Source: Thermoplasmata archaeon
Lineage (GTDB): Archaea; Thermoplasmatota; Thermoplasmata; Lutacidiplasmatales; UBA184
DNA: 64,000 nucleotides
Direction: 5' to 3'
NCBI GenBank assembly: GCA_035532555.1
Contig: DATKQS010000009.1
Coordinates: forward strand, 62,001-126,000
Shown one piece after another: positions 4,795 through 54,461 of the stretch. The position numbers and the translations under genes are program-made. The first letter of the stretch is position 1. Each line of letters starts with the position of its first letter. Under the pieces are notes generated by a model. The model saw only the letters and a program-made list of their open reading frames with translations. It had not been told where the DNA came from and searched no databases.

Positions 4795-6041
4795 AATCGC
4801 AAGCGTCGGATCACGGGCAGCGCCAGCAACCCGGCGGCCCCGACGAGGACCATGAACACGCCGATCGTCGCGCCGACCCACGCGAGGGGCACCGCCGCGA
4901 TCAGGAACCCGATCACGATCGCTCCTACCGCACGCGAGCTTCCGCGGAAGACGTAGGAATTGGTGATGGTCCGCGCGACGAGCTCGCGCGGGGCCGTCGC
5001 TTGAAGGTAGACAAGCCAGGTGGCGAAGAAGATCCCGTCGACCGCGCCCACGGCGAACCAGCCGAACGCGCTTGCGAGCAACTGCGGCGCGGCATAGATC
5101 GCGCCGACGAGCAAGAGGCCCTCGGCCACCGGCCCGATCCCGAGCACGATCCCGAGCCACCGACGAGGGTTCGTCTGCCCCAACGCGAGGACCCCGAGCC
5201 CACCTCCGATCGCGAAGGCAGTGAACATCACGCCGTAGGCGGCGGCCGGCACCGCGAACCGCTCGCTCGCCAGGACGGGCAAGAGAATCGCCGGCGCCGC
5301 CGTGAAGAACGACTGGAAGGCGGAGTACACCGAGAGTTGGAGGAGCGTGCGATGGGGCCCTCCGAAGAGGTATCGCCACCCGGCCCGGAACTCGGTCCCC
5401 ACCGAACGGATCGCACGGACGACGCGAGGGACGTCCACACCGAGCGCCGAGATCCCCGCCGCGACGTTGAGGGCGGCATACAGGAACGCAGCGTAGGATG
5501 GGCCAACGAGGAGGAGCAGGGCCGACCCGGCCGCGTACCCCGCGATCTGGCCGCCGCCAGCTCCGGCGTTCATGACCCCGCTCGCACGGAAGAGCGTCGG
5601 GGCGTCGACGAGCTCGGGAGGTACGGCGTTGGAGGCGGTCCAGGTGAAGTCCCAGACGCTCGAGATGAGCACGACAAGCCCGAGGAGGAGCGGGATCGTC
5701 AGGACCCCGGCTTCGGCGGCGAACCCGAGAGCCGCCGCTCCAGCCGCCTGCAGCGGGTAGCCGACGATCAGCACGAGCCGGAGATTGTGGACGCGATCGA
5801 TGTACGGGCCGACGAGGAAGGCGAGGGCGTAGACCCCGAACTCGATGCCGACGACGGCTCCGACGACCGTGACCTGGTGGGTGGTCGTGTAGGCGAGCCA
5901 CGGGATCGCGACCGCGTATACGGCGTATCCCGCCTCGCCGAAGACGTAGGAGAGGAAGAACGCGAGGAAGCTCCGATCGGCGAATAGGCGGCCGTACGAG
6001 GTCGGAGGGTCGCGGGGGACCGCCGAGGTCGCTTCCGTCAT
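4791..6041 (-). CDS. Major facilitator superfamily transporter
   Basis: A 416-residue membrane protein with about twelve hydrophobic segments, beginning FLAFFLSYVFGEAGYAVYAV and including the loop GPYIDRVHNLRL after the third segment, the position of the MFS A-motif (GxxxDRxGRR), here degenerate. Length and layout match MFS permeases. It lies nine bases downstream of the glycerate-kinase-like gene and is the last gene of the operon that starts with the two dehydrogenase subunits, so it may carry that pathway's substrate or product. A clear paralogue lies at 55535-56779 on the other strand. Substrate and direction of transport are unknown. Confidence 0.9.
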   Translation of the reverse strand: MTEATSAVPRDPPTSYGRLFADRSFLAFFLSYVFGEAGYAVYAVAIPWLAYTTTHQVTVVGAVVGIEFGVYALAFLVGPYIDRVHNLRLVLIVGYPLQAAGAAALGFAAEAGVLTIPLLLGLVVLISSVWDFTWTASNAVPPELVDAPTLFRASGVMNAGAGGGQIAGYAAGSALLLLVGPSYAAFLYAALNVAAGISALGVDVPRVVRAIRSVGTEFRAGWRYLFGGPHRTLLQLSVYSAFQSFFTAAPAILLPVLASERFAVPAAAYGVMFTAFAIGGGLGVLALGQTNPRRWLGIVLGIGPVAEGLLLVGAIYAAPQLLASAFGWFAVGAVDGIFFATWLVYLQATAPRELVARTITNSYVFRGSSRAVGAIVIGFLIAAVPLAWVGATIGVFMVLVGAAGLLALPVIRRLRF

Positions 6042-6049
6042 CCCGAGCT

Positions 6050-7372
6050 CTAGGCTGTCGATGGCTTACCGAGAAGCGCGATCGCGAGACAGCCGACGTC
6101 CGTGACCCCGGACTGCATGGGGATCGCTCGTGCGCGGCCGACGGGGACCTTGGCCTGTGGATCGGTCGGCCGTCCGATCACGGCTCCGGGCGGATACGCC
6201 TCGTCCCCGATCGTCCCGGCCGTCCGCAGGAGAGCGATGCTCATCTCCGGTCGCCGCATCCTCTCCTGCGCTCGGTGGAGAAAGCGAGCGAGAGCCGGGC
6301 CCTCGTCGGCCCCTTCGGGAAGTCCGAGCGTCGTCATCGCGAACGCGCCGATCCCCTGGCTGTGATCGAGCTCGAGATCGGCCTCCCGCGCGACGATGGC
6401 CTCGAATCGCTCTAGGAACCGGTCGGCGGCGAGCTCGGGAGGGCCCTCGATCTGGAGCATCGCGAGACGGCTGCGCCACTTCTTGTCGAAGATGACGTCC
6501 CCGGCAGCGCGAAGCGCATCGTTCGGTCCCGCGACGCGCACGGGGCGATGTCGCGGAGGCTCTCCGGACTGCGCCGGGCCGCCTCCGGGTGCGAGCTCCG
6601 CGATCGTGGCCGACGGCAGGGCCCTCTGCAGGTCGAGACGCCGGAGTACCGAGCGCGCCTCCTCGCGTTCGCGCGGAGCGATGGGGTGGGCCGGTCCCCC
6701 TCCGAGCAGCGTGGCCCCATCCCCGTGATCGACGATGAACGTTGCGACGTCGGCCTTCTGGACCGCCGCCCCGAGGCGGCCTCCGACGGGACCGCGGGCG
6801 AGGACCCGCGCCAGCAGACCGACCTCTCGCCCGCTCGCTCCCCGCTCGTGCGCGTTCGTCAGAAATCGGCCGAACTCCTCGCCGGACATGCCCGGAGGTG
6901 GGAGCGCGAGCGCCGCGATCGTCCCGGGCGAGAGGAGCAGGAGGAGCAACTGATGCTCGCCTAGGCTCTCGGCAACCTCGAGCGCTCCACGGGCCGCTTC
7001 CTCCGCGCGGGGCGTGCCCGGGCTTCCGAGGGGGAGAGAGATGTGCAGGAACGGAACTTCGGGAGGGATGGGGGTGGGACCGACGGTGAAACCCATCGTG
7101 AGGCGGTCGTGGAGGGAATCGAGCGCTGCGATCGCCATCGATCCAGCCGCCGAGCCACAGGCGATGAACGCGATGTCCCGGTAGTACCCGAGGGGAACGA
7201 ACCGGTTCCCAACCCGCATCGTGTCCCCTTCGATCTGGAGGGCGTCGCGCACGCCGTGGTAGGCGTCGGCCGCCTTCACCGCGGCTTCGTAGGCGAGTGC
7301 GGGCAAGGGATCGGGGCCTTTGGGAAGCGGAATCCCATGCGGGAACGGGTCCCAGGGGAACTGACCGATCAC
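6050..7372 (-). CDS. Degenerate glycerate 2-kinase-like (DUF4147/MOFRL) protein
   Basis: The 440-residue protein aligns along its length with glycerate 2-kinases: HGIPLPKGPDPL start, AAVKAADAYHGVRDAL, then GDGATLLGGGPAHP and a C-terminal LLRTAGTIGDEAYPPGAVIG region like the MOFRL domain. Family hallmarks are altered. The usual GKAA lysine motif reads CGSAAGSMA, the SGGGSAL loop reads LLSPGTIAAL, and no GGRNQE motif is seen. The enzyme therefore probably does not phosphorylate glycerate in the usual way, or at all. It sits between the FAD oxidoreductase beta subunit and the MFS transporter in one operon. A TATA-like TTTTAG near 7394-7401 lies just before its start, so it may also have its own promoter. 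Confidence 0.75.
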   Translation of the reverse strand: MIGQFPWDPFPHGIPLPKGPDPLPALAYEAAVKAADAYHGVRDALQIEGDTMRVGNRFVPLGYYRDIAFIACGSAAGSMAIAALDSLHDRLTMGFTVGPTPIPPEVPFLHISLPLGSPGTPRAEEAARGALEVAESLGEHQLLLLLLSPGTIAALALPPPGMSGEEFGRFLTNAHERGASGREVGLLARVLARGPVGGRLGAAVQKADVATFIVDHGDGATLLGGGPAHPIAPREREEARSVLRRLDLQRALPSATIAELAPGGGPAQSGEPPRHRPVRVAGPNDALRAAGDVIFDKKWRSRLAMLQIEGPPELAADRFLERFEAIVAREADLELDHSQGIGAFAMTTLGLPEGADEGPALARFLHRAQERMRRPEMSIALLRTAGTIGDEAYPPGAVIGRPTDPQAKVPVGRARAIPMQSGVTDVGCLAIALLGKPSTA

Positions 7373-7459
7373 ACTCGCGCGATGAAGTTCTGACTAAAAG
7401 GGTCTCGACCCCGACGAAGGATGTCGCGAGAGGCCCTTCGATGCTCGGAGAAGGCCGGT

Positions 7460-8629
7460 TTACCCGAGCTGGAGCCGTTCGGTGGGAAGCTCGCGGCCGG
7501 ATTCGGAGAAGCGCTGGGGGCCGAACAGGTGGGGATCGAGGTCGGAGGGTTCTCCCAGGACGGCGCGGGCGACGCGCTGGGCAGAGGCCGGGGCGAGCAT
7601 GAACCCGTGCCCCCCGAACCCGTTCGCGTGCACGAATCCGGGAAGGCGCGCATCCGTGCCGATCACGGGGAACCCATCCGGGGTATCGTCGTAGTACCCC
7701 GACCATGCGCGGAGGACTCGGAGCGATCGAAACTGCGGGAAGAGTCCGACGAGGCCTCGGGACATCCGCGCAAGGAAGTCAAGCGAGCTCCCCATCCCGG
7801 GCCGGGTCGCTAGGGTAGCGGAGGGCGCGATACCTCCGACGATCTCCCCGCGCATCGTTTGGCTGAAGTAGAGTCCGTCCGAGACCCGAACGACCATGGG
7901 GTCCAAGAACGGTTTCAACGGTTCGGTAGCGAGGATCTCGTGCCGTGTGGCCACGTTGGGGACATCGAGGCCAGCGCGGCGTGAGAGCTCCCCGGACCAG
8001 CCACCGGCGGCGTTGACGCAGTGCTCGGTCGCGATGCGACCGAGGGACGTCTCCACGGCCGCCACACGCCCCCCGAGAGCGTGGATTCCCGTGACTTCGG
8101 CCCCCAGGACGACCTCGACGCCAAGAGCGCGGACGGCCTCGTACAGACCCCACAGCGCCGGGAATGGGTACAGGATTCCGTCCGTGCGCAGGTACGTCCC
8201 GCCAATGGTCGCATCGGGACGGATACCGGGCACCAGCCGGAGTACCTCCGCGGCGTCGAGGACCCGGGAGACGAGCCCCTCGCCGCGCACGACGGCGTTG
8301 ACCCGGCGAAGGCGGGCGAGTTGGCCCTCATCCTCGGCCACGAAGACGTAGCCCGATTGCCGGAACCAGATGTTGTACCCGAACTCCCGCCCGAATCGGC
8401 GGTATGCGGCGACGGATTCGCGCGCGAGCCGGATCGTGGCCGGGGTCTCCCATTGCTGGCGGACACCGCCGCCGTTTCTTCCGGATGCCCCGCTCGACAG
8501 GAACCCTCGATCCAGTACGAGGATCGGTCCGGCACCGGCGTGGGCCAGATGGTACGCGGTGTAGAGCCCGATGATCCCGGCCCCAACGACGACCGTGTGG
8601 TAGGAGGATCGGGCCGGGGAGGTGATCAC
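7460..8629 (-). CDS. FAD-dependent D-amino-acid dehydrogenase, beta (DAO-type) subunit
   Basis: A 389-residue DAO-family flavoprotein. The dinucleotide-binding motif VVVGAGIIGLYTAYHLA is at residues 13-29, followed by LDRGFLSSGASGRNGGGVRQ, typical of sarcosine oxidase beta, HcnC and D-proline or D-hydroxyproline dehydrogenases. The C-terminal FAD-contact region reads GFVHANGFGGHGFMLAP. Its start overlaps the stop of the alpha subunit gene by four bases, so the two chains are made together. Enzymes of this type oxidise a secondary amine or D-amino acid and pass electrons to the partner's Fe-S clusters. With a 4-hydroxyproline epimerase elsewhere in the window, cis-4-hydroxy-D-proline is a reasonable substrate, but D-proline, sarcosine or an opine are possible. 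Confidence 0.88.
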   Translation of the reverse strand: MITSPARSSYHTVVVGAGIIGLYTAYHLAHAGAGPILVLDRGFLSSGASGRNGGGVRQQWETPATIRLARESVAAYRRFGREFGYNIWFRQSGYVFVAEDEGQLARLRRVNAVVRGEGLVSRVLDAAEVLRLVPGIRPDATIGGTYLRTDGILYPFPALWGLYEAVRALGVEVVLGAEVTGIHALGGRVAAVETSLGRIATEHCVNAAGGWSGELSRRAGLDVPNVATRHEILATEPLKPFLDPMVVRVSDGLYFSQTMRGEIVGGIAPSATLATRPGMGSSLDFLARMSRGLVGLFPQFRSLRVLRAWSGYYDDTPDGFPVIGTDARLPGFVHANGFGGHGFMLAPASAQRVARAVLGEPSDLDPHLFGPQRFSESGRELPTERLQLG

Positions 8630-10278
8630 GGCGCCTCCTTCTCATCTGGGGGGCCGGCAAAGGACGCTAGCGCTCCCAAAGATGTCGGCAGGACCGGAGG
8701 GCGTTGGGTGATGTAGCCGACCTCGGACGGGCGGCGCTGTTCCAGGATGGAGAGAAGCAGGACGGCGTCGGGGAGGCAATACCGGCCCTGGCAGAGCCCG
8801 GTGCCGAGGCCCGTGTAGCGCTTGATCACCTCGATCCCACGATACCCACGCCGCTCGGCGTCCTCCACTTCGTGGAGGAGGACGTCCTCGCATGGACATG
8901 CGATCCACTTTCCGGAGCCCCGGGGTTGGCGAAGAAGCTCCCGATAGTATCCTTCGAGCTCCCCAGGGAGATCCATGGAGGGAGGATTGGACGAGGACGG
9001 CGCGGAGGAGTCCCGCTGCACGATCGACGTCGCGGCGAGTTGAGCGCACCTGACCGCGGCCGCGGGGTCGAACACCCCAGCCGCCTCGCCCACGGCATAG
9101 AGGCCGGGCACGGTCGTCTGCCCGGTTTCCGAAACGATCGGGAAGTAAGCCGCGGCGCGGGAGCGCCACTGCATCAGGGCCCCGGCCTGGAAGAACAGCT
9201 GTGGGTGGGGCACACGCCGGTGGGCGAGTATGATCGCATCCGCTCCGAGCCGGAAGGATGGCCCATCCGAGCGGGTCCGAAGCGTCAGCCCTCGAACCCG
9301 ACGTCGACCGACCGTAGAGAGAACTAGACTCCGGGGGTAGAGGGGGACTCCCTGCTCCGAGGCGAGCCGGGTGAGATCGGGATTGACGTCTCCCGGAGCC
9401 GCGATGGCCGAGATCCGGCTGGGAAAGCGTGCGAGTACCTCCCGCGCGCGCTCGCCTCCACCGAAGACGACGGCGCGGTTGAACGGCGGAGGCCCGGGGG
9501 CCGAGAGAGCGAATGCCCCTTCCGCCGTGAGCACCCCGGGGCGATCGTTCCCCGAGAACAGCAGGGAGGCATCGTAGCCTCCCGTCGCGACGATGACCGA
9601 GCGCGCGCGAACCTCCACGCCCTGGCCCGAGTCGTTGGTTGCGGCGAGGGAGAACGGCTGGGCCGCGGCCGGATCGGGAGGGGGGAGGAATACTGCCGTC
9701 GTGCGGCCGAGCATCTCGGCACCCGACAGGGTCGACGCCCGGGCATCGCGATCGAGCACTACGACGGACCCGACGCCCGAGCGCAGGAGGGCGCCGGCCG
9801 CGGCGCTTCCGCTGACCCCTCCGCCCACCACCGCGACCTCCACGATCCTACGGATCGAAGCCGGAGGAGGCTGCTGCGTGGCCTCGGTAGGAGGGTCGTC
9901 ATACCCGCTTAGGCGACGGACGACCCGTTGGTAGAGCGACGTGAACGCCGCGGGGCGCCGGAACCCCCGAAGGGTGTCGATGCCCCGCGGGAACACGACA
10001 TCGACGATGCCGAGGAGATCGAAGGACGGAGAGGGCCAGGCGTTCGCCGTTGTCTTCATTCCCGGCAGGTCGAACCCCTCCCGGCAGGCCCGAACGTTGG
10101 TCCGTCCGTCCACGCGGACGAGGCAGTTCGTGCAGTAGCCGACCCCGCAAAACGGGGCGCGGGGCCGGTGGTAGCGAATCGAACGTTGCAACAGAGGAAG
10201 CAGGCCCTTCCGCGACGGCGATCCGACACGGGGAACGCTCGACGGCTCGGGCGAGGAGGCCGAGGGCATGCCCGACAT
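8626..10278 (-). CDS. Dehydrogenase alpha subunit: 2Fe-2S, pyridine-nucleotide flavoprotein and BFD-like domains
   Basis: About 550 residues from the ATG at 10278. The N-terminus holds a ferredoxin-like site (CGVGYCTNC and a following RAC, the C-x4-C-x2-C pattern of sarcosine oxidase alpha and HcnA). A flavin domain follows with VAVVGGGVSGSAAAGALL near residue 150 and GLYAVGEAAGVFDPAAA near residue 430. The C-terminus has a BFD-like cluster: CPCEDV, then a second pair in GLCQGRYC about 35 residues later. This is a fused HcnA/HcnB layout, found in opine oxidases, hydrogen cyanide synthase and D-hydroxyproline dehydrogenases. It is the first gene of the operon and overlaps the beta subunit by four bases. 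Electron acceptor and substrate are unproven. Confidence 0.87.
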   Translation of the reverse strand: MSGMPSASSPEPSSVPRVGSPSRKGLLPLLQRSIRYHRPRAPFCGVGYCTNCLVRVDGRTNVRACREGFDLPGMKTTANAWPSPSFDLLGIVDVVFPRGIDTLRGFRRPAAFTSLYQRVVRRLSGYDDPPTEATQQPPPASIRRIVEVAVVGGGVSGSAAAGALLRSGVGSVVVLDRDARASTLSGAEMLGRTTAVFLPPPDPAAAQPFSLAATNDSGQGVEVRARSVIVATGGYDASLLFSGNDRPGVLTAEGAFALSAPGPPPFNRAVVFGGGERAREVLARFPSRISAIAAPGDVNPDLTRLASEQGVPLYPRSLVLSTVGRRRVRGLTLRTRSDGPSFRLGADAIILAHRRVPHPQLFFQAGALMQWRSRAAAYFPIVSETGQTTVPGLYAVGEAAGVFDPAAAVRCAQLAATSIVQRDSSAPSSSNPPSMDLPGELEGYYRELLRQPRGSGKWIACPCEDVLLHEVEDAERRGYRGIEVIKRYTGLGTGLCQGRYCLPDAVLLLSILEQRRPSEVGYITQRPPVLPTSLGALASFAGPPDEKEAP

Positions 10279-10309
10279 ATGGAACGGGCTCGGAACCCGC
10301 GCCCGGAGT

Positions 10310-10403
10310 ATTTTAGGGTCCCGGCTCCGGAACCGACCGCGGCGGGTGCCGAATCGTCCTCCGGTGGACACGGACGACACCTGCCGAACGAGCCAACTAT
10401 ATA
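10310..10403. promoter_or_regulatory. Divergent promoter region between dehydrogenase operon and phoU-like gene
   Basis: Plus-strand TATATA at 10398-10403 lies about 27 bases before the ATG at 10428, giving a leaderless PhoU-like transcript. On the minus strand CTAAAATA at about 10317-10310 lies 32-35 bases before the ATG at 10278, giving a leader of only a few bases. The two start regions are about 120 bases apart and could share regulation. Confidence 0.6.
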
Positions 10404-10427
10404 GACTCCTGATACACCGACGCCCCG

Positions 10428-11495
10428 ATGCGCGCCACCGGAGGATTTCATGGCCGGAAGATCCAGAAGACCGGTGGCTCGACCTACATCATCTCGCTTC
10501 CGAAGAACTGGGTCACGAGCCGGGGGCTCCACGCCGGTGACGTCCTGACCTTCGCCCCCCACCCGGACGGCTCGCTGCAGATCCAACCGGAAGAGGGCAG
10601 CTCGATGGAGGTCCTGCGCCGGGTAGTCGCGATCTCGAACGACATGGACGAGGAGCACCTGCTCCGCCGGCTGATCGCGGAGTACATCGCGGGCTCGACC
10701 TTGCTCGAGATCCGCACGCCGACGCGGATGAGCGCTCGCACCCGCGACATCGTTCGAGGATTCGCTCAGCGCGTGATCGGCCCGGAGATCATCGAGGAGA
10801 CTGCGGAGTCGGTGATCCTCCAGGACGTCGTGGGCCCGAATCCGCTTCCGCTCCCGTCCGTCATCCGCCGGATGCACCAGATGGCGCGCGCGATGCAGTC
10901 CGATGCGATGGCCGCCTTCCACTCCGCGGACGCGTCGATCGCGAAGGACGTGATCGAGCGGGATCGCGAGGTCGACCGGCTCCACTGGTTCATGGAGAAG
11001 CAGGTCAACTCCGCCCTGCGGGATGCCCGTGTCCTGACGAGCCTATCGGTCACGCTTCCGGACTGCTCGACGTACCTGCTCGCTTCGCGCCTGATGGAGC
11101 GAATCGCCGACCATGCCGTGCGCATCGCGGGAACGATCCCCCTGTTCCAGAAGGAGCGGCCGCCGGCCGCGATGGTCGGCGAGCTCGAGCGGATGTCCGA
11201 AGCCGCGGCGAAGGCTCTCACCGAGGCCCTCGAGAGCCTTGAGCACCGGGACATCGAGCGAGCGAATGCGGTCATCGACGCGGCCCACCGCCTGGTCCGC
11301 GAGCGGGCCCACCTATTGCAGGAGGTCTCGACCAAGCGCGGCCGGATGGCGGTCGGCCTTGCCTATGTCCTCGAGAGCCTGGAGCGCAGCGCGCTCTACG
11401 CCGGAGACCTCGCAGAGATCGCGATCAACCACGCCGTCGAAACACCCACCGCCACGGTCGAACGTTCGGTCGGCGCCCCCGTGCCCAAGGCGTAA
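10428..11495 (+). CDS. PhoU-domain regulator with N-terminal AbrB/SpoVT DNA-binding domain
   Basis: A 355-residue protein in two parts. Residues 8-50 form an AbrB-like swapped-hairpin domain (GRKIQKTGGSTYIISLPKNW, then GLHAGDVLTFAPHPDG). Residues 115-340 form two PhoU helical repeats with the acidic metal-binding patches typical of the family, for example RDREVDRLHWF and LMERIADHAVRIA. The fusion is a known archaeal architecture thought to couple phosphate status to transcription. No pst transporter genes are visible here. Leaderless transcription is indicated by the TATATA box 27 bases upstream. It is divergent from the dehydrogenase operon. The domain assignment is firm; the regulated genes are unknown. 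Confidence 0.9.
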   Translation: MRATGGFHGRKIQKTGGSTYIISLPKNWVTSRGLHAGDVLTFAPHPDGSLQIQPEEGSSMEVLRRVVAISNDMDEEHLLRRLIAEYIAGSTLLEIRTPTRMSARTRDIVRGFAQRVIGPEIIEETAESVILQDVVGPNPLPLPSVIRRMHQMARAMQSDAMAAFHSADASIAKDVIERDREVDRLHWFMEKQVNSALRDARVLTSLSVTLPDCSTYLLASRLMERIADHAVRIAGTIPLFQKERPPAAMVGELERMSEAAAKALTEALESLEHRDIERANAVIDAAHRLVRERAHLLQEVSTKRGRMAVGLAYVLESLERSALYAGDLAEIAINHAVETPTATVERSVGAPVPKA

Positions 11496-11545
11496 AATGG
11501 GCCCCCGGGCGAGACCTACATAGCTAGGGCCCAATAGTCGGTCGC

Positions 11546-12703
11546 CTATGGTGGTCGCGGGCCGTCGGTGCCCGCGACCTGCTCCACCAAGCGGCGGAGC
11601 TCCTCCGCCGACGGAACGCGGGGGTTCGCGATGCATGTGGTCGAGTGCAGTGCCCGTTCTACGATCACCGCCCGCTGGGCCCGGATCGCGTCGAGGGGAA
11701 CCCCTGCCGCAGCCAGGGTCCGCGGGATCTGAAGCTGCTCGCCGAGCGCGCGCAGTCTTTCGGAGAGCGTCGCGTGGCTCTGACCCACCGGTTCGGAGAG
11801 CACCGGCCCGAGCGCGAGGTATCGATCGCGTGCCGAGCCGAAGTTGAAATCGACGACGTACGGCAGGACGATGCCGAGGAGCCGACCGTAGCCGAGCCCC
11901 GTGTCGGGGAGCATTGCCCGCGTGAGCGCGTGGGCGAGGCCGAGTTGGGCGTTCGATGCAGCGAGCCCGGCGCGCGTAGCGGCATAGAACAGGGCCGTTC
12001 GGGCCTCCTCGTCGCGGGGGTGACGGGCGAGACGCGGCAGGGCCGTCAGGGCGGTCACGGCCGCATCGCGCGCCAGCGCGTCCGAGAACGGATTCGCCCA
12101 CTCCGATGCGAGCGCCTCGAGTGCGTGGGCGACCACCTCCATGCCGGTGTCTACGGCGAGGGCCGGCGGCATCGATCGTCCGAAGGTCGGGTCGACCAGG
12201 GCCCAGTCCGGAGTGAGGTCCCGGTGGGAGAGTTCGATCGTGGAGCCGTCCTCCGCGAGAAGGTTGCTCGATCCCGTGGCCTCGCTGCCGCTCCCCCCCG
12301 TGGTCGGGATCGCGATGAGCCGGGGTCGCGCCGGCACGGCGAGCTCTGCGAGCGGGGTCAACGTGCGCACATCGAGATCGGGGCGGGCGCGCGTGGCGAC
12401 GAGCGCCTTCGCGAGATCGATCAGGCTACCTCCGCCGACGGCGAGGAGGGTGTCGAACGATACGTTCTTGGATCGATCGATCAGGAGGGCGAGCGTGCGA
12501 AGGGTAGCCGCCGACGGGAGATCGTCCACGACGATCGACGGGGTCTCGCTGCGGGCGAGCTCTCGGATCACCCGACGGGCGGGATCCAACGCCGCGATCG
12601 CCGGATCGATGAGAACGAACGCGGACCGGATCCCGAGTCCGCTCAGCTGTTCGATGGCTCCGGGTCCCCACGCGACGCGCGGCGACGTGAAGAACCCGGA
12701 CAT
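11546..12703 (-). CDS. Iron-containing alcohol dehydrogenase family protein, altered metal site
   Basis: A 385-residue group III ADH-fold protein (NAD(P)-dependent alcohol, butanol, glycerol or maleylacetate reductases). The nucleotide-binding GGGSLIDLAKALVA is near residue 90 and IAIPTTGGSGSEAT near residue 130. The metal site usually has Asp-x3-His and two later His residues. Here it reads GMEVVAHALEAL (Glu for Asp, His kept) and GLAHALTRAML (His kept), while the last ligand region reads TGLGYGRLLGIVLP with Tyr where His is normal. Metal binding and activity may therefore differ. It follows a Fur-like zinc-domain gene by 18 bases on the same strand and probably shares its transcript. The substrate is unknown. 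Confidence 0.82.
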   Translation of the reverse strand: MSGFFTSPRVAWGPGAIEQLSGLGIRSAFVLIDPAIAALDPARRVIRELARSETPSIVVDDLPSAATLRTLALLIDRSKNVSFDTLLAVGGGSLIDLAKALVATRARPDLDVRTLTPLAELAVPARPRLIAIPTTGGSGSEATGSSNLLAEDGSTIELSHRDLTPDWALVDPTFGRSMPPALAVDTGMEVVAHALEALASEWANPFSDALARDAAVTALTALPRLARHPRDEEARTALFYAATRAGLAASNAQLGLAHALTRAMLPDTGLGYGRLLGIVLPYVVDFNFGSARDRYLALGPVLSEPVGQSHATLSERLRALGEQLQIPRTLAAAGVPLDAIRAQRAVIVERALHSTTCIANPRVPSAEELRRLVEQVAGTDGPRPP

Positions 12704-36955: not shown

Positions 36956-37765
36956 GTGGCCGTGATTCGCCCGCTGTTGGTGACGCTCCTCCGCGGCGAC
37001 GCCCGCTTGCTGCCCGGAGTCGCCGACACGTCCGTCGATCTCGTCGTCACCTCCCCTCCGTATCCGATGATCCCGCAGTGGGACGAGACCTTCCGGCGCC
37101 TCGGGGCGTTAGAGTACGACGGGATGCACGCGGCGCTTACCGAAGCGTGGCGAGCGTGCCATCGAGTGCTCGTACCCGGGGGGATCCTCGCGATCAACAT
37201 CGGGGATGCGCTTCGGTCGACGAACGGACAGTTCCAGCTGTGGCCCAACCACGCCACGGTGCTCGCGAAAGCGAGCGCAATCGGGTTCCGACCGCTCCCG
37301 TATCTCCTCTGGAAGAAGCCCACGAACAAGCCGAACGCCTTCCTGGGGTCCGGCTTCCTTCCGCCGAATGCGTACGTCACGCTCGACTGTGAGTTCATCC
37401 TCCTGTTCCGCAAGGGAGCCCTCCGGCGGTTCTCCCCGGGGGATCCGCGCCGGCGATCGAGCCGGTACACCCGGCCCGAACGGGATCGCTGGTTCTCCCA
37501 GATATGGACCGATGTCCGGGGAGCGCGCCAGAGGGCCGGCATGCAGCGGACCGGCGCGTTCCCTCCTGAGATCCCGCGTCGGCTCGTCCGCATGTTCAGC
37601 GTGGTCGGCGACACAGTCCTCGACCCGTTCGCCGGTACGGGGACGACGCTATGGACCGCGGCCGGCCTCGGCCGGAAGGCGATCGGGGTCGAGATCGATC
37701 CCGAGATCCACGCGCGTTCGGTCGACGAGGGACGCCGCCAAGGCTTCGAAGTCGCCGTGGAGTAG
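36956..37765 (+). CDS. DNA methyltransferase of the N4-cytosine/N6-adenine class
   Basis: The 269-residue protein has the beta-class order of motifs: catalytic VVTSPPYPMIPQWDE near residue 30 (TSPPY favours N4-cytosine), a target region, and the SAM-binding FxGxG motif at the C-terminus as LDPFAGTGTTLWTAAGLGRK with GVEIDPE. It methylates a base of double-stranded DNA at a short site that cannot be read from sequence. No restriction endonuclease is adjacent, so it is probably an orphan. It starts with GTG, diverges from HPS-RraA and converges with the last gene of the VirB-like operon. Similar in build to the methyltransferase at 60746-61693. Confidence 0.9.
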   Translation: MAVIRPLLVTLLRGDARLLPGVADTSVDLVVTSPPYPMIPQWDETFRRLGALEYDGMHAALTEAWRACHRVLVPGGILAINIGDALRSTNGQFQLWPNHATVLAKASAIGFRPLPYLLWKKPTNKPNAFLGSGFLPPNAYVTLDCEFILLFRKGALRRFSPGDPRRRSSRYTRPERDRWFSQIWTDVRGARQRAGMQRTGAFPPEIPRRLVRMFSVVGDTVLDPFAGTGTTLWTAAGLGRKAIGVEIDPEIHARSVDEGRRQGFEVAVE

Positions 37766-37788: not shown

Positions 37789-38319
37789 CTACTCGGGTGC
37801 GGCCGCCGGCGGAGTCCGTTTCGAGCGCGTCCGGTGGACGCGCTCTTCTTCGACCGCGTGGCCGAGGTAGACCAGCGCCGTGTCGCTCAGACGATCCATG
37901 TGCAACAAGAGATAGTGCAGATAGAGCCGCTCCGGTCGAGCCAGGGGCCCCGGAGTTCGCCCGGTGTTCGCGGGCGCGTCCGGGCCGGTGCGATGGCGAG
38001 CGATGGTCTCCGCGTCGTGCTCGTGGTCCTTACCGTGATACTCGCGCCCGAGCTCGCCGACGAGCGGCGGGTAAATCGCTTCGATCGGATCGGGATCCGC
38101 GGCCTCCCGCGCGTCCGCGGCCGGAAGGGACTCGCCCGGCGGGGCGGACTCGGCCACGCCGGCACTCGAACGTGGGGCCGGAGGAGTTGGAAGCGACCGG
38201 GGAGGATCCTGAAAGTGCGCAATCGGGTGGCCCGAGACGTTCTCGACGATGGTCCTCAGGCTCCAGTTCGGGCGGCGTCGCGCGGGTGCGGTCGCGGTGG
38301 CCCGGTCCTGCGTCGCCAC
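37789..38319 (-). CDS. Uncharacterised protein at the end of the VirB-like operon
   Basis: A 176-residue product starting with GTG at 38319, 24 bases after the stop of the VirB4-like gene and on the same strand, so probably the last gene of that operon. The middle is Pro/Ala/Arg-rich. Recognisable elements are a basic N-terminus (ARRRPNWSLRTIVENV), a helix EAIYPPLVGELGREYHGKDH, and a C-terminal amphipathic helix LYLHYLLLHMDRLSDTALVY. No membrane segment or known family is evident. Position suggests an accessory or regulatory role for the secretion apparatus. Confidence 0.65.
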   Translation of the reverse strand: MATQDRATATAPARRRPNWSLRTIVENVSGHPIAHFQDPPRSLPTPPAPRSSAGVAESAPPGESLPAADAREAADPDPIEAIYPPLVGELGREYHGKDHEHDAETIARHRTGPDAPANTGRTPGPLARPERLYLHYLLLHMDRLSDTALVYLGHAVEEERVHRTRSKRTPPAAAPE

Positions 38320-38343: not shown

Positions 38344-40026
38344 TCATAAGCGTGGTGTTGGAGGCGCAGGATGGGGTCCCTTCGACGCGGAGTCGGGGGC
38401 CAAGACCCGAACCAAGAAGTCGTATTCCGGGGTCGAGGCGACCAGGGCGATCGGGAGGTGGAGATCTCCGAGGCGCAGCAGGCCTTCGGAGTACCCCGCC
38501 TCGCGCGGGAGCCGCGCGCGAGGGATCCACTCTGCCTCCGCGTCGGTCAGCCCGAAGAACGCTCGCACGTCCGGCGCGACGTGGGTGAGCCTCAACAGGA
38601 AGGTCGCGCGGAGGTTCCCGAGCAGCGAACGACCACTCGGATGGAGGAGGAAGTCGTCCGGATGCTGGCTGAGCACCACGACGCCTCCCTGGAAGTGCCG
38701 CACATGCCGAACGATCCGGTCGAGGAACTCCGCCGTGGCACCGTGCCGCACCAGCAGGTGAGCCTCGTCAACCACGAGGAGCTTCGGGCCGGGGCGATCC
38801 CGCAGCCGTCCGTACGCCCAATCGAGAACGTACGCGAGGTGGAACGGCAGGTGATCTTCGGGGATCCCTCGGAAGTCGACGCTGACGACGTTCGTCTCCA
38901 CGTTGACCGAGGTCGGACCGTTCACGCTTCGCAGCGAACCCGAGCGGAACGGCTCGAGCAGGGCCTCGAGGCGCTCGGTGGCCGGTCCGCGATCCACTTC
39001 GGCGAGGAGATCGGAGAACACCGGGATCTCCGGCCCCCGGTCGTACAACCGACTCACCGCCGCGTCCAGCGCCGCGGACTCCTCGTCCCGCAGGCTCGGA
39101 AACAGCGTGCGCAGGATGGCGCCGACGCGCCCGGCCTTCTCGGCACGATCCCCGCCCGTGGAGATCGGGTCGAGTGGGTTCAGACGAACTTCGCTCTCCG
39201 CACCAAAGGTCAGAACGGTACCTCCGAGCGCCCGCACGAACCCCCCGAACTCGCCGAGAGGATCAAGGAGGACGACGCCCGCTTCCGGGCGGATCCACCG
39301 CGTGCGCAGGAGGGTCAGCGCGGTCGCGAAGGTCTTGCCGGACCCGGTCGCTCCGAAGATCCCCCAGGAGTGGCTCGCGTGCGACCAGCGGTCGAGGAAG
39401 ACCGGGGCGGCATCCTGCAACAGGAGCCCGACCAGCACTCCGCCGGGCTCGAGCACGGTCTCGTCCACGAACGGATAGAACGCCGCGAGACCGTCGGTCT
39501 GGAGGGTTTGCCAGTAGCCGACGGGCCGGACCTCCGAGCCGGTCAGTCCCGGAGCGGCCAGCGCTTCGCGTACCGCATAGCGAGGCACGCGCGTGTGGAA
39601 CCCCAGTGCGGCGAGGCGCCGCTCGAGTCCCGTGCGCGTCCGCTCGGCCTGGCCCTCCGAGCTCGCGACCGCGGCGAATCGAACTCCCACCCTCCAAAGC
39701 TCCTGCTCGCGCCGGGCGACCTGATGGCCGAGCTCCTGGGCGCTCTCGCGCTCCGCATGGAGCTGGGCGGATCGGCCGTCTCCGTCGCCGCCGTGGGCGA
39801 GTTCCGCTTCGGCGACCGCGCGCGCTCCGTGCAGGAGCTCCAGCGCTCGTCCCGAGCCGATGGGGTGGGCCTCGACGAGGACCTCGAGCGACTCCGAGGT
39901 CGGACAGAGGCCACCGAGGAATCCGAACGGAACCTCCCTCGGGAACTCTCGGATCAACAGGGGGGCGACGTAGCGCCCGCGCGTGCGGAGCCACCCCGGC
40001 CCTTCGACCGCACTCGCTCGGGTCAT
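38344..40026 (-). CDS. VirB4-like (CedB/TedB-like) secretion ATPase
   Basis: About 560 residues from the ATG at 40026. The C-terminal ATPase domain shows Walker A GATGSGKT near residue 225 and Walker B LLVVDEAHLL near residue 415, plus the VirB4-typical VVVLSQHPDDFLL and LLGNLRATFLLR. The N-terminal 190 residues match the substrate and partner domain of VirB4 proteins (GRYVAPLLIREFPREVPFGF, YWQTLQTDGLAAFYPFVDE). VirB4 energises type IV secretion, conjugation and archaeal DNA import. It is co-transcribed with small membrane, PrgI-like, TrbL-like and pilin-like genes, overlapping the preceding gene by four bases. The missing relaxase and coupling ATPase suggest a domesticated DNA transfer or pilus system rather than a mobile element. 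Confidence 0.9.
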   Translation of the reverse strand: MTRASAVEGPGWLRTRGRYVAPLLIREFPREVPFGFLGGLCPTSESLEVLVEAHPIGSGRALELLHGARAVAEAELAHGGDGDGRSAQLHAERESAQELGHQVARREQELWRVGVRFAAVASSEGQAERTRTGLERRLAALGFHTRVPRYAVREALAAPGLTGSEVRPVGYWQTLQTDGLAAFYPFVDETVLEPGGVLVGLLLQDAAPVFLDRWSHASHSWGIFGATGSGKTFATALTLLRTRWIRPEAGVVLLDPLGEFGGFVRALGGTVLTFGAESEVRLNPLDPISTGGDRAEKAGRVGAILRTLFPSLRDEESAALDAAVSRLYDRGPEIPVFSDLLAEVDRGPATERLEALLEPFRSGSLRSVNGPTSVNVETNVVSVDFRGIPEDHLPFHLAYVLDWAYGRLRDRPGPKLLVVDEAHLLVRHGATAEFLDRIVRHVRHFQGGVVVLSQHPDDFLLHPSGRSLLGNLRATFLLRLTHVAPDVRAFFGLTDAEAEWIPRARLPREAGYSEGLLRLGDLHLPIALVASTPEYDFLVRVLAPDSASKGPHPAPPTPRL

Positions 40027-40364
40027 GCAAGCCCTCCTCGATCGGCGGTCGGATGACGGGTCGCCCACCACAGGGGCAGAAGGCTCATCGCGAGGATCGG
40101 TCCGCGCACCGCGTCGACCGGAATCGGGGCCGCCACGTAGAGAAGAGTCGCTAGGGCCACGATCGATATTCCCGCGAGCTCCTCGCGGGGCACGCGCAGT
40201 CCACGAGCGGGGGAGCGCAGATGCACGAGGCGCGCCGCGATCGCGAGCGCGACGAGCGTGAGCGAGAGCGCGCCGAGCTGCGGATCTTCGACCGACGCAA
40301 GCGCGGTGGCGATCGCGAGGACGACGGCCATCATGAACGGATCATGGTCAAGCGGTCCGTTCAT
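40023..40364 (-). CDS. Small membrane component of the VirB-like system
   Basis: A 113-residue protein with four predicted membrane segments (MMAVVLAIATALASV, LGALSLTLVALAIAARLVHL, LAGISIVALATLLYVAAPI, PILAMSLLPLWWATRH). It overlaps the PrgI-like gene upstream and the VirB4-like gene downstream by four bases each, so its synthesis is coupled to both. No family recognised. By place and size it could be an inner membrane adaptor such as a VirB3- or VirB8-like subunit, but that is inference. Confidence 0.75.
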   Translation of the reverse strand: MNGPLDHDPFMMAVVLAIATALASVEDPQLGALSLTLVALAIAARLVHLRSPARGLRVPREELAGISIVALATLLYVAAPIPVDAVRGPILAMSLLPLWWATRHPTADRGGLA

Positions 40365-41149
40365 GGTCGCTCGCTCCCCGGTCGCCTCTCGCCCCATCCA
40401 AAGTGGCGGAGCGCTGCCGTGAGCGACCGGTCGCGTAGGCGAGCGGGCTCCGCCCCGAGGGTCGCGAGTCCCTGACGCATCGCCTGGACCCGGTCGCTCA
40501 GTCGGGAAGCCCCGTCCGTCCGGAACGCATGCTCCCAGAGGAGCACGTAGACCCGACGCCGGCGACGGCGAGAACAGAGCAGCTGGACCATCTCCGAGTA
40601 TGCGGCTCGTGCGGCGGCGTCCGGGCGGTCGCCTTCCGTGCTCGATGGGAGCCAGGGCCGGGCGTCGATCGGCGTTCCGACCGAAGCGAGCACGATCCCG
40701 CCCTCGCTCCCGCGCAGGAGGTCCCGGTACCCCCGGAAGCGCCGATGGAGTTCCTCCGGAGGAAGGAATGCGACGGGGGATCCCGCGCACTTCAACACGG
40801 CGACCCGCACGCCCGAGGCGAGACGAACGGTATCTCCCAACTCCGCGCGGGTCGACGGGCCGCTCACAGCATCGACCTCCCGGTGCGTCCGCAACGTCCA
40901 GCGGACGTACGCGGCGATCCGCGCGTCGACGGCCGTTCCTTCGGGGTGCCAGACGGTGACGAGGAACGCCACACCGACGATGGGAAGCCACGTCCACGCG
41001 CCGGCCCAGGGGATGACCAGCGCACCCACCGCGGCATACGCCACGCACCGGAGCGCGTCGCGTACGGAGGGGAATGGACCGAATCGCATCCGTCGGTCGA
41101 TCCGCTCCGGCAGCGGGATCCGCTCGGGCCGGATCTCGCCCAGGGCCAT
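40361..41149 (-). CDS. PrgI/VirB3-like membrane protein
   Basis: About 262 residues from the ATG at 41149. The N-terminal part carries a PrgI-like layout: RPERIPLPERIDRRMRFGPF, two membrane segments (ALRCVAYAAVGALVIPWAG, TWLPIVGVAFLVTV) and a following strand. PrgI and VirB3 proteins bind VirB4 in conjugation systems. The C-terminal 150 residues are cytosolic and charged, with an arginine run in SRRRRRRVYVLLWEH. The ATG at 41149 begins one base after the upstream TGA and is preferred to the earlier in-frame ATG at 41254 that would overlap the TrbL-like gene. Function as a VirB4 adaptor is likely from context, and the fold match is moderate. Confidence 0.75.
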   Translation of the reverse strand: MALGEIRPERIPLPERIDRRMRFGPFPSVRDALRCVAYAAVGALVIPWAGAWTWLPIVGVAFLVTVWHPEGTAVDARIAAYVRWTLRTHREVDAVSGPSTRAELGDTVRLASGVRVAVLKCAGSPVAFLPPEELHRRFRGYRDLLRGSEGGIVLASVGTPIDARPWLPSSTEGDRPDAAARAAYSEMVQLLCSRRRRRRVYVLLWEHAFRTDGASRLSDRVQAMRQGLATLGAEPARLRDRSLTAALRHFGWGERRPGSERP

Positions 41150-41150
41150 C

Positions 41151-42272
41151 TCATCCGCCGCCTCCTCGACCCACCGGGGCGAACCGGCGCGTCGAGGTCT
41201 CCATCGAGCCACGAATGTGGCGAGCGAGGTGGGCCGCGCTTCGCCCGAACGCATCCGCTACGAGGATCGGAGCCGCTGCCGGCATCGCAGCCCCCGAGAG
41301 CGAGCGCGAAGACCCCTGGATCGCGGCCCCCGCGCCTCCACTGCCTCCGCCGCCGCTACTCGAGAACGCCTGCGCCCCCGACGACGGCCCGCGGGACGCC
41401 TGGGCGAGACCCCGCTCGACCCCGTTGGAGAGCGTGGAGCCGACGTTCGGGAACCCGAAGGAGGAGAGCTGCGTGCCGGACATCGACAAAAGGAACGGCG
41501 AAGCGAGGGCGATCGACAGGTACGCAACGAGCAGTCCCACGTTCGGCGAGCCCACCGCGAGCTCGAGCGGGATGACGAGAACGCACGGTAGGAAGGCGAG
41601 CTCGATGAACAATAGCCATCCGCGCTTCGCCCAGATCGAGAACGGGCGGATCGGCCAGACAATCGTGAAGAGCGGCAGGACGACGATCAGCACCGCGAGG
41701 AGAGCATCTCGCACGCCGATCGCGAGCGCTAACAGGAGCACGAGGGAGAACTGAACGAAAGCGAGGACGAACGTGAGTGCGCCGTTGCTCCAGGAGAAGC
41801 TGAACTCCGCGCTCCCCGCGAGATTCACCCAGTGCTGCCAAGCGCCGCCGTCGTAGCCGGCGATGGTCGGGTACATCGCGCCGGCGACCTCGAGGATCCC
41901 GCCGGCGATCGGGACGGTGAAGTTGGCGAGGACGACCGCGACCACGAACCGCGCGATCAGGCCGTCCGCCCATGCCGGCGAGCGCGGCCAGACCGACTTC
42001 GCGAGGTAGACGCCGCCGATGCCGATCGCGACGAGCGCGATGAGGGGATCAACGAGGCTCACCAGAGTGAACGAGCTGAAATTCGCCGCCTGGGCGAGAT
42101 AGCTCGGGCCCCCATGGCTCCCCGGTCCGAGCGGTGGGAACAACTGGCCGACCTGCAGCTCGGGAACGACCAGGTTGTCGTACGTGGGCCCGATGATCGC
42201 AGCGAGCGCCGCGGTCAGCGCGGCGAACAGCCCGAAGAGGATTGCCTGGACGATCTGGCCGATGTCGACCAT
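41151..42272 (-). CDS. TrbL/VirB6-like polytopic membrane protein
   Basis: A 373-residue protein with about seven membrane segments, such as ILFGLFAALTAALAAIIG, LVDPLIALVAIGIGGVYLA, FVVAVVLANFTVPIAGGIL, FVLAFVQFSLVLLLALAIG and DALLAVLIVVLPLFTIVWPI, and a glycine/serine-rich C-terminal tail. The layout resembles TrbL/VirB6 and archaeal CedA, the channel-forming parts of type IV secretion and DNA import systems. It begins seven bases after the pilin-like gene and its stop is one base before the PrgI-like start. Similarity is by topology and genome order; sequence identity to known VirB6 is weak. Confidence 0.8.
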   Translation of the reverse strand: MVDIGQIVQAILFGLFAALTAALAAIIGPTYDNLVVPELQVGQLFPPLGPGSHGGPSYLAQAANFSSFTLVSLVDPLIALVAIGIGGVYLAKSVWPRSPAWADGLIARFVVAVVLANFTVPIAGGILEVAGAMYPTIAGYDGGAWQHWVNLAGSAEFSFSWSNGALTFVLAFVQFSLVLLLALAIGVRDALLAVLIVVLPLFTIVWPIRPFSIWAKRGWLLFIELAFLPCVLVIPLELAVGSPNVGLLVAYLSIALASPFLLSMSGTQLSSFGFPNVGSTLSNGVERGLAQASRGPSSGAQAFSSSGGGGSGGAGAAIQGSSRSLSGAAMPAAAPILVADAFGRSAAHLARHIRGSMETSTRRFAPVGRGGGG

Positions 42273-42279
42273 GGGGGCG

Positions 42280-42663
42280 TTAGACCCCGGTGATGACCCA
42301 CTGCGCGAGCCCCCAGACGAGGCCCGTGATCGCGGCGGTGAAGACGAGCGTTCCGATCAGCGCGTCGCGCGCGCGGTCCTTCGCTTGCACCTTCTTCGTG
42401 ATGTCGTTGGAGAACCAGCTGAAGGCGACACGTGCCCACACCAACGCGAGGATCCCACCGCCCGCCACCGCAAGGAGATCGACCAAACGGTTCACCGCCG
42501 CGGAGAAGTTTCCGACCGGGCTATTCGCCGACGCCGCCGACGGGGCCGGATGCGGAGCGTGGGGTCCCGCCACGGTTCCAGGAACGACCGCAGTTCCCGC
42601 TCCCACGCTGAGGAGGCTCGCGACGAACACCGCGAACGCGGTCGGGCCGAGGCGGGGGTTCAC
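42280..42663 (-). CDS. VirB2/TrbC-like pilin candidate
   Basis: A 127-residue protein with the three-segment plan of conjugative pilins. A hydrophobic signal-like N-terminus (AFAVFVASLLSVGAGTAVV) is followed by a Pro/Ala/Ser linker with possible cleavage sites, then two membrane helices (LVDLLAVAGGGILALVWARV and ALIGTLVFTAAITGLVWGLA) separated by a basic loop (NDITKKVQAKDRARD). VirB2, TrbC and archaeal CedA1/TedC have the same two-helix hairpin with a positive loop that binds lipid in the pilus. The GTG at 42663 overlaps the stop of the wHTH gene by four bases. It lies upstream of the VirB6-like gene, as in conjugation operons. Confidence 0.75.
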   Translation of the reverse strand: MNPRLGPTAFAVFVASLLSVGAGTAVVPGTVAGPHAPHPAPSAASANSPVGNFSAAVNRLVDLLAVAGGGILALVWARVAFSWFSNDITKKVQAKDRARDALIGTLVFTAAITGLVWGLAQWVITGV

Positions 42664-42956
42664 CGTCCCTCCCGACGCTCGATCCAGGTCAGTCGGACCA
42701 CCCCGTCCTCTCCGCGATCCGATCGGATCCGGCCCGTAGCGCACAATCGATCGATCGTGCGTCGCACGCGCGCCCAGGGCACCCCTTCCTCCTCCGCGAG
42801 GAGCTCGACCATCGCCCGCTCCGCCCCATCGCACGGCTCGATGATCCGTCGTAGGACCTCGACCGCGTCCGGGGGCGTCACCGACGGAGGCGGACGCCTC
42901 CCCCACAGCCATCCGATCCAGTTCCCGCGCGTCGTTGCCTTCTCTTCGTCGTCCAT
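42660..42956 (-). CDS. Small winged-helix-like protein heading the VirB-like operon
   Basis: A 98-residue protein. After an acidic start it has helices and a wing pattern: PPDAVEVLRRIIEPCDGAE, ELLAEEEGVPWARVRRTIDR, CATGRIRSDRGEDGVVRLTW, which looks like a compact winged helix. It overlaps the pilin-like gene by four bases and is the first gene of the seven-gene operon, so a repressor of the operon is the natural guess. A membrane helix is absent; the Trp-rich GNWIGWLWGRR stretch is probably a surface patch. The next gene upstream, fibrillarin, is on the same strand but separated by 79 bases. Confidence 0.7.
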   Translation of the reverse strand: MDDEEKATTRGNWIGWLWGRRPPPSVTPPDAVEVLRRIIEPCDGAERAMVELLAEEEGVPWARVRRTIDRLCATGRIRSDRGEDGVVRLTWIERREGR

Positions 42957-43035: not shown

Positions 43036-43692
43036 TTACGACCGAACGAGGAGCGCCGTGTGCTCCCGCGAGAACGGGACGAGCGCCGTCTCCGATAGGA
43101 CCGTCAAGCCGTCCCGCGAGAGCTCGGATCGAGCCGCGTGGACGATCGCCGGAGCCGGGCGGGTCTGGGTCACCGAGCGGATCTTGAGCATCATGAGCCC
43201 CCGCCCGCCGGTGGCGAGGAGACTCCTTGCGTTCTCCGCAAATATCGCTGCCTGCGTTCTCTGGGCGATGTCCTGGTAGAGGAACTCCACCGTCCCGACG
43301 TCCGCCGCATAGCGCTCGGGAAGCTGCGCGTCGGCCAGGATCGGGTATAGATTGGTGCGTCGGCGTGCGAGCGCGAGCAGGGGAGCGAAGGAGGTGGGGC
43401 TCTTTTCGACCACGAAGATCCGCGCGTCCGGCAGCAGGTCGGACAGGTGGCTCGCGGTGGTCCCGTGCGCTGCCCCGAGATAGAGCACGTTCTTCGCTCC
43501 GACCCACGGTGCCTCTTCGGCCCCGCGCAGGAGCCAGGCGGCCAGCTTCGAACGGAATGGATCCCACTGGCGGTACTCGACGCGCGCGGAGACGCGGAGC
43601 TCCTCGCCGTAGACCCGCTCGCCGGGCCGCAGGTTGACCGTGTAGAGATCGCGCCCCTCACGAAACACGCCCGGCCAGTTCGTCGGATCCAT
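43036..43692 (-). CDS. flpA: Fibrillarin (box C/D RNP 2'-O-methyltransferase)
   Basis: A 218-residue fibrillarin. N-terminal strands (NWPGVFREGRDLYTVNLRPG) lead into the methyltransferase with YRQWDPFRSKLAAWLLRGAE, the SAM site NVLYLGAAHGTTASHLSDLL, VEFLYQDIAQRTQA and LMMLKIRSVTQT. In archaea it methylates rRNA and tRNA within the L7Ae-Nop5-guide RNA particle. Nop5, usually the neighbour, is not in this window. It follows a RidA gene by ten bases on the same strand. The protein is normal in length, and the function is secure. Confidence 0.95.
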   Translation of the reverse strand: MDPTNWPGVFREGRDLYTVNLRPGERVYGEELRVSARVEYRQWDPFRSKLAAWLLRGAEEAPWVGAKNVLYLGAAHGTTASHLSDLLPDARIFVVEKSPTSFAPLLALARRRTNLYPILADAQLPERYAADVGTVEFLYQDIAQRTQAAIFAENARSLLATGGRGLMMLKIRSVTQTRPAPAIVHAARSELSRDGLTVLSETALVPFSREHTALLVRS

Positions 43693-54270: not shown

Positions 54271-54461
54271 ACCTAGCCGTTCGGTCTCGACCTCACGGCT
54301 CTGTAAGGGCGGAAGCCGCGGATCTAGGGGGCAGATTTCGTTCACGGCGGGATCGTAGCCAAGCTATCCCTTTCCGGAGGAGCAACTCACTGGTTCGAAC
54401 CCCCCACAGGGCCGCGGCCCGTGGGCCTGTCTCCCGATGGGATTTGAATCCCCCGGGGAGA
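54271..54461. repeat. tRNA-derived fragments next to tRNA-Met
   Basis: Plus-strand GGTTCGAACCCCCC near 54393-54407 is a T-arm-like sequence. On the minus strand at 54428-54461 a CCGGGGGATTCAAATCCCAT core repeats the T-arm of the adjoining tRNA-Met. None has a complete cloverleaf. Together with the fragment at 52022 they suggest repeated recombination at a tRNA gene. Confidence 0.45.

Follow-up and report, generated by a model that had tools for sequence, protein, structure and literature searches.

A minimal, probably domesticated type IV secretion operon on the chromosome of a Thermoplasmata archaeon

Chromosomal VirB systems and the locus compared with them

The Ced and Ted systems are the archaeal precedents for chromosomal sets of VirB2, VirB4 and VirB6 homologues that move cellular DNA (PMC9905601, PMC11868833), and archaea have been described as lacking VirB3 homologues (PMC11868833). 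Here we describe a minus-strand operon of seven conserved genes (42956-37789) in a stretch of 64,000 nucleotides, called the window below, from a Thermoplasmata archaeon of the order Lutacidiplasmatales (assembly GCA_035532555.1, contig DATKQS010000009.1, positions 62,001 to 126,000). As judged from sequence, its genes make up a minimal core of a type IV secretion system (T4SS), namely a VirB2-like pilin, a VirB6-like protein, a PrgI/VirB3-like protein, a small membrane protein and a VirB4 ATPase, with a conserved hypothetical protein behind them and a winged helix-turn-helix (wHTH) segment in front. On balance, we regard it as a minimal, chromosomally fixed T4SS whose likeliest job is the passage of DNA between kin cells. 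The literature search, made in open-access papers, turned up Ced, Ted, Patescibacteria and archaeal plasmids, and found no T4SS of such kind described for Thermoplasmatota.

The Ced system of Sulfolobales (CedA, CedA1, CedB, CedD and CedE) resembles the operon in being chromosomal and relaxase-less, with a VirB2-like pilin, a VirB6-like channel and an ATPase of the VirB4 superfamily. In both, parts of VirB4 are spread over more than one gene: CedB and CedD in Ced, and the PrgI-like protein with its VirB4-N-terminal part and the ATPase here. Unlike Ced, the operon contains a PrgI/VirB3 homologue, and its VirB4 is far nearer to the CD1110 family (3.4e-41) than to CedD, which is matched weakly (6.4e-9). 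A search of the genome that carries the window found no CedB (NF041017) at E<=0.001, the S. acidocaldarius control being positive, and NurA was not found there either. Because CedB is unmatched, PrgI is present and VirB4 is of the FATA kind, the operon is not Ced by membership, as far as sequence comparison tells. The preliminary description of this DNA had seen a layout matching Ced/Ted that would form a distinct branch; a chromosomal VirB2/B3/B4/B6-like set on its own branch was indeed found, and membership in Ced was not upheld.

Ted of Thermoproteales (TedA, TedB and TedC), compared by description, likewise keeps a signal-peptide pilin, a VirB6-like protein and a true VirB4 together with no relaxase (PMC9905601). 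The operon differs in its PrgI-like gene and, in relatives, a gene for a surface protein. ParA/MinD, HerA and Rad50, common in Ted loci, are not among the immediate neighbours of the operon (fibrillarin, RidA, DNA methyltransferase and an aldolase fusion); the other genes of the window were read by eye.

Modules of mating-pair-formation type FATA (MPF-FATA), with CD1110-type VirB4 and PrgI, share with the operon a gene order of VirB6-like protein, PrgI, small protein and VirB4, three of these four being significantly matched by profile in an Embleya plasmid. In the plasmid VirD4 follows VirB4, whereas the operon has a pilin, no linked VirD4 or relaxase, and a conserved chromosomal locus. The T4SS of Patescibacteria are similar in carrying a chromosomal FATA-related VirB4, PrgI, VirB6 and VirB2-like pilins, mostly without a relaxase (PMC12102498). 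They are bacterial and, in contrast to the archaeal second copies described below, have no VirB3-VirB4 fusions; the text consulted mentions no Ig/PKD-transmembrane-wHTH protein (PMC12102498). One archaeal integrative conjugative element (ICE) was reported in 2011, in Aciduliprofundum boonei (PMC3158045). Compared by description, it too carries VirB4 and lies in a genome of Thermoplasmatota, and it differs in being described as a mobile element; it may or may not be identical to locus L065 of our collection.

The genes of the operon

The VirB4-type ATPase (38344..40026, minus strand, as all seven genes) is the firmest assignment. Its best NCBIfam match is NF045971, the CD1110 VirB4 conjugation ATPase family, followed by VirB4_plasma, TraC and VirB4_CagE, with CedB absent from the match list; TIGR00929 was matched at 7.4e-16. 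The VirB4 structure PDB 4ag5 was matched at 8.3e-14, and both Walker A (GATGSGKT) and Walker B (LLVVDEAH) are intact. Its identity is unambiguous by these sequence matches, and the predicted product provides the VirB4-family ATPase of a VirB-type T4SS core.

Pfam and NCBIfam scans gave no direct significant family match for the other operon proteins, which were assigned through the sequences of relatives. Some genomes of genera g2 and g4 carry second, more divergent T4SS copies, in which the PrgI-like protein and VirB4 are fused in one open reading frame (ORF). For comparison with them, profiles were built from the chromosomal copies alone. The profile of the VirB6-like polytopic membrane protein (41151..42272, about six hydrophobic segments) found the collinear gene of these conjugation-type copies at 5e-7 to 3e-15, that of the PrgI/VirB3-like protein (40361..41149, a membrane domain linked to a stretch resembling the N-terminal part of VirB4) found the N-terminal part of the PrgI-VirB4 fusions at 1e-8 to 1e-14, and that of VirB4 found its counterpart at about 1e-98 or better. 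Profile-profile alignment by hhalign between chromosomal and second copies gave 97.4% for VirB6 and 97.1% for PrgI. The Embleya plasmid NZ_CP108778.1 has the order VirB6-like, 'PrgI family protein', small protein, VirB4 and VirD4; its annotated PrgI family protein was matched by the chromosomal PrgI profile at 4.2e-10, and the gene upstream of it by a broad VirB6 profile at 3.9e-13. Because the profiles match collinear genes of both the second copies and an actinobacterial plasmid, the presence of a VirB6-like channel and of a VirB3/PrgI component, further components of such a core, is supported at the level of sequence, and both names given in the preliminary description can be retained. The direct Pfam match to PrgI was weak (3/22 family members, best 0.011); the VirB6-like protein matched no named Pfam or NCBIfam family and nothing meaningful in the PDB sequence search, and it yielded no usable fold. 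Searches of a plasmid collection and of viral contigs found no member of the VirB6 family, a result in favour of the chromosomally fixed T4SS proposed below.

The second copies are found at L046, L047, L049, L053, L054, L056, L058 and L059. All complete genes among them are PrgI-VirB4 fusions, and if the contig extends further, a VirD4-like gene and often an OB/SSB-like gene lie next to them. L056, the copy examined most fully, combines a T4SS_pilin match above cut-off with genes for VirB6-like, OB/SSB-like and VirD4-like proteins. By their gene content, the second copies may be conjugative elements, although no relaxase was recognised in them.

The presumed pilin (42280..42663, GTG start) has a signal peptide followed by two further hydrophobic helices that form a hairpin around a conserved charged loop, as read from alignment and hydropathy. 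A low-confidence model (pLDDT 56) places helices at 49-91 and 97-125, and a PDB sequence search with the pilin profile found no chain. Elsewhere, L065 (12826-17685) contains five pilin-domain proteins in a row beside VirB6, PrgI and VirB4 genes, several of them with N-terminal ectodomains of some 200-350 residues.

The first gene, at 42660..42956, was initially listed as a wHTH gene; it is what remains of a surface protein and not a free regulator. In most relatives the wHTH forms the last ~75 residues of a protein of 500 to >1300 aa, which is the first gene of the operon and reads as repeated Ig/PKD-like segments, a single transmembrane segment and the wHTH on the cytoplasmic side. The window and L040 retain the wHTH end alone, recognised by its match in relatives (Pfam DUF5817_CT, 3.7e-4, is below cut-off), and L031 and L038 have no wHTH match with the rest of the operon kept. 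Pfam matches of Ig/PKD type to the ectodomain in L034 are weak. In another family, L065 and L069 encode proteins with clear Ig/PKD domains, a transmembrane segment and a wHTH-like tail beside their pilins; hhalign of these tails with the operon family gave 44%, so that a relation by sequence is only suggestive.

The remaining two genes encode a small, fast-evolving membrane protein of conserved position with about three hydrophobic segments (40023..40364; ratio of nonsynonymous to synonymous substitution rates, dN/dS, 0.45) and a conserved hypothetical protein of 176 aa (hyp7, 37789..38319). The latter carries the C-terminal motif ERLYLHYLLLHMDRLSD (YLHYLLLHxDRL-type), had no match in the Pfam search, and lies downstream of VirB4 in most relatives and apart from the operon in L052. 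The start of the PrgI-like gene was moved from 41254 to 41149, a conserved M1 in the family alignment, and that of VirB4 from 40071 to 40026 by alignment with relatives. After this correction three junctions (wHTH/pilin, PrgI/small protein and small protein/VirB4) overlap by 4 bases, and the others leave gaps of 1-24 bases. The compact set of overlapping or nearly touching genes with a seventh behind them, as first described, thus holds for all seven ORFs. Since the gene order is kept in relatives at 23-65% identity and dN/dS is 0.06-0.45 for the operon genes covered by the close relative L040, the ORFs are real genes beyond chance; the dN/dS values also indicate purifying selection.

Relaxase, coupling protein and distribution

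Relaxases of PF03432, the sole relaxase family searched, were found in 0/106 genomes of the order, whereas the positive control was detected, and the Pfam scan detected no VirD4 coupling protein in the operon locus. The earlier statement that neither is seen stands for the locus. For VirD4 it holds there only, as the genome has a 790-aa ATPase with VirD4/HerA features (a TrwB_AAD_bind match above cut-off) on a different contig (C23), beside DRG and GINS-like genes. The ATPase occurs in both carriers and non-carriers of the operon, and for this reason it was not accepted as a dedicated operon component. In L071, however, its homologue (3.7e-26) stands directly after VirB4, so that the ATPase may act in trans for the operon. 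This locus (5860-12009, family f13) reads pilin, VirB6, small protein and VirB4, then the VirD4/HerA-like ATPase and a GINS-like gene whose Sld5 match is below cut-off, near genes reading like topoisomerase VI.

VirB4 is present in 85/106 genomes of the order, in 7/9 genera, all in one family. In genera g1, g6 and g7, the window's genus among them, the operon shares a common neighbourhood, with RidA and a fibrillarin gene upstream, and hyp7, usually a DNA methyltransferase, and the aldolase fusion downstream. The constant upstream neighbour is a second fibrillarin-like gene not linked to Nop5 (43036..43692, minus strand; PF01269, 1.4e-57; synteny), and the frequent downstream neighbour in g1 and g7 is an N6/N4 DNA methyltransferase (36956..37765, plus strand; PF01555, 2.4e-34; synteny). 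The other fibrillarin-like gene of the genome, linked to Nop5, is on contig C23 (L096:5209-5910), and carriers with an alignable C23-type locus (L108-L112 and L115) possess it as well. Contamination of the bin by the window contig, suspected from the two fibrillarin genes, was rejected since other carriers have both.

Beyond the order, the VirB6 profile matched 61/380 sampled genomes of the phylum, and a pilin-VirB6-(VirB3)-VirB4 cassette was seen in loci of several other Thermoplasmata families. G201, G198, G195 and G138 are tentatively taken by us to be Thermoplasma acidophilum, T. volcanium, Cuniculiplasma divulgatum and A. boonei, so the distribution apparently includes cultured Thermoplasma and Aciduliprofundum. 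Grouped by family, the VirB4 tree showed 13 label changes, against a minimum of 12 and a shuffled mean of 34.9, where row L107, labelled f6, belongs to G414 of f13 and rows labelled g1 include public loci without an assigned genus. Chromosomal copies of the window's family group together in a clade (100/100), apart from the second copies, which have a clade of their own (100/100). The VirB4 phylogeny, as reconstructed from these sequences, follows taxonomy.

Proposed function and competing explanations

The operon would encode a T4SS of MPF-FATA type, as known from the conjugative elements of archaea and monoderm bacteria. From the roles of known families, the PrgI/VirB3-like protein probably docks the ATPase to the VirB6-like channel, beneath which VirB4 would drive pilus assembly and/or DNA movement, while the Ig/PKD-like surface protein of relatives may act in cell-cell contact. 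The outcome would be that kin cells in contact pass chromosomal DNA to one another, to be used in repair or recombination, as Ced and Ted do. The sequences show the gene content, the homology of VirB4, VirB6 and PrgI, the conserved location and purifying selection; pilus formation, DNA as the substrate, the direction of its movement and the role of the surface protein are what we infer. DNA movement between kin is preferred because no relaxase was found and the locus is chromosomal and vertically kept, in analogy to Ced and Ted. Likewise, because no relaxase was found, the locus has no coupling protein, the neighbourhood is a single chromosomal one and inheritance is linked to lineage, the operon is probably a distinct, domesticated branch of T4SS. 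The chromosomal form could either have been captured from an element or represent the older state.

Several observations weigh against this proposal. NurA has been proposed as the maker of single-stranded DNA for Ced and Ted, and it was not found in the genome under study. The VirB2-like pilin is the weakest assignment by sequence, resting on position, topology and sub-threshold T4SS_pilin matches: PF18895 was found in 9/21 family members, at best 7.9e-5 and under cut-off, with the window member at 3.4 (a homologue in L076 gave 4.4e-5), and hhalign with the second-copy pilins gave 14%, no match. The preliminary description had named the lack of any VirB6/VirB2 match as a refutation; matches for VirB6, PrgI and the pilin were found, that of the pilin being the weakest, and the pilin is kept as a putative one. 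Structure models were of too low a confidence to be of use and found no fold match by Foldseek. One fixed site was seen for g1, g6 and g7 only, the flanks examined in g2, g4 and g5 being different. Six genomes lacking VirB4 (G034, G044, G046, G047, G039 and G026; 83-93% complete) also lack the neighbouring aldolase gene. One of them, G047, is a close relative, with about 94-97% identity to the genome under study over the parts compared. Its collinearity with the window runs as far as 35370 and resumes at 54442; the intervening 19 kb, operon included, are missing. At one edge of the gap a contig ends close to tRNA-Glu, and at the other edge lie unrelated genes. The absence, whether due to loss, to replacement or to a gap in the assembly, suggests a dispensable segment and does not demonstrate excision of an element. 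An ORF at the gap, read by eye as an integrase, was rejected for want of a Pfam match.

The G047 gap, with one end close to a tRNA-Glu gene, and the related second copies with VirD4 in g2 and g4 genomes would fit a resident or decaying ICE rather than a host function. However, the far boundary of the gap yielded no repeat of the tRNA-Glu end, the flanks are shared across g1, g6 and g7, the VirB4 tree follows taxonomy with the second copies apart, no PF03432 relaxase was found in the 106 genomes, and the genes are under purifying selection. A relaxase or integrase bounding the locus in relatives had been named as the sign of a mobile element; no PF03432 relaxase was seen, and the flanks are conserved ordinary genes. 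By the flank comparison, the VirB4 tree and the relaxase search, a mobile element was rejected as the main explanation, and we consider this reading improbable.

Somewhat less improbable, and still unlikely, is that the domesticated T4SS serves to deliver effector or toxin proteins into other cells instead of exchanging DNA. A precedent is in Patescibacteria, for whose chromosomal, mostly relaxase-less FATA-related T4SS other functions are proposed (PMC12102498), and the unlinked VirD4/HerA-like ATPase and the long ectodomains of the L065 pilin-domain proteins would agree with it. That ATPase, however, is also present in relatives lacking the operon, Pfam and NCBIfam scans recognised no effector or immunity gene in the operon, and DNA is what the closest archaeal systems with a known function transport. 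The ectodomain-transmembrane-wHTH protein heading the operon in relatives, with a similar architecture in L065 and L069, could point instead to an adhesion or contact pilus, a VirB-like filament in which the Ig/PKD-like protein senses contact and the wHTH tail signals to transcription without DNA transport. A VirB6-like channel and a VirB4 ATPase exceed the needs of an adhesin, however, and of the surface protein the window retains just the wHTH end, with no wHTH match in L031 and L038, which otherwise keep the operon; we give this explanation little credence.

Implications

Broader and more tentative than DNA passage between kin cells, and on the doubtful side in our estimate, is the possibility that a VirB2/B3/B4/B6 apparatus is ancestral to much of Thermoplasmata, Thermoplasma and Aciduliprofundum included. 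It would be a third domesticated DNA-exchange machine of archaea, with an Ig/PKD-type mating adhesin joined to a cytoplasmic wHTH through which contact would act on expression.

If the proposal of a fixed T4SS for DNA passage is true, a chromosomal VirB core across Thermoplasmatota would extend such systems to another archaeal phylum, and the operon would contribute a VirB3/PrgI component, which archaea have been said to lack (PMC11868833). Gene exchange in Thermoplasmatota archaea would then become directly testable, apparently including cultured Thermoplasma and Aciduliprofundum.

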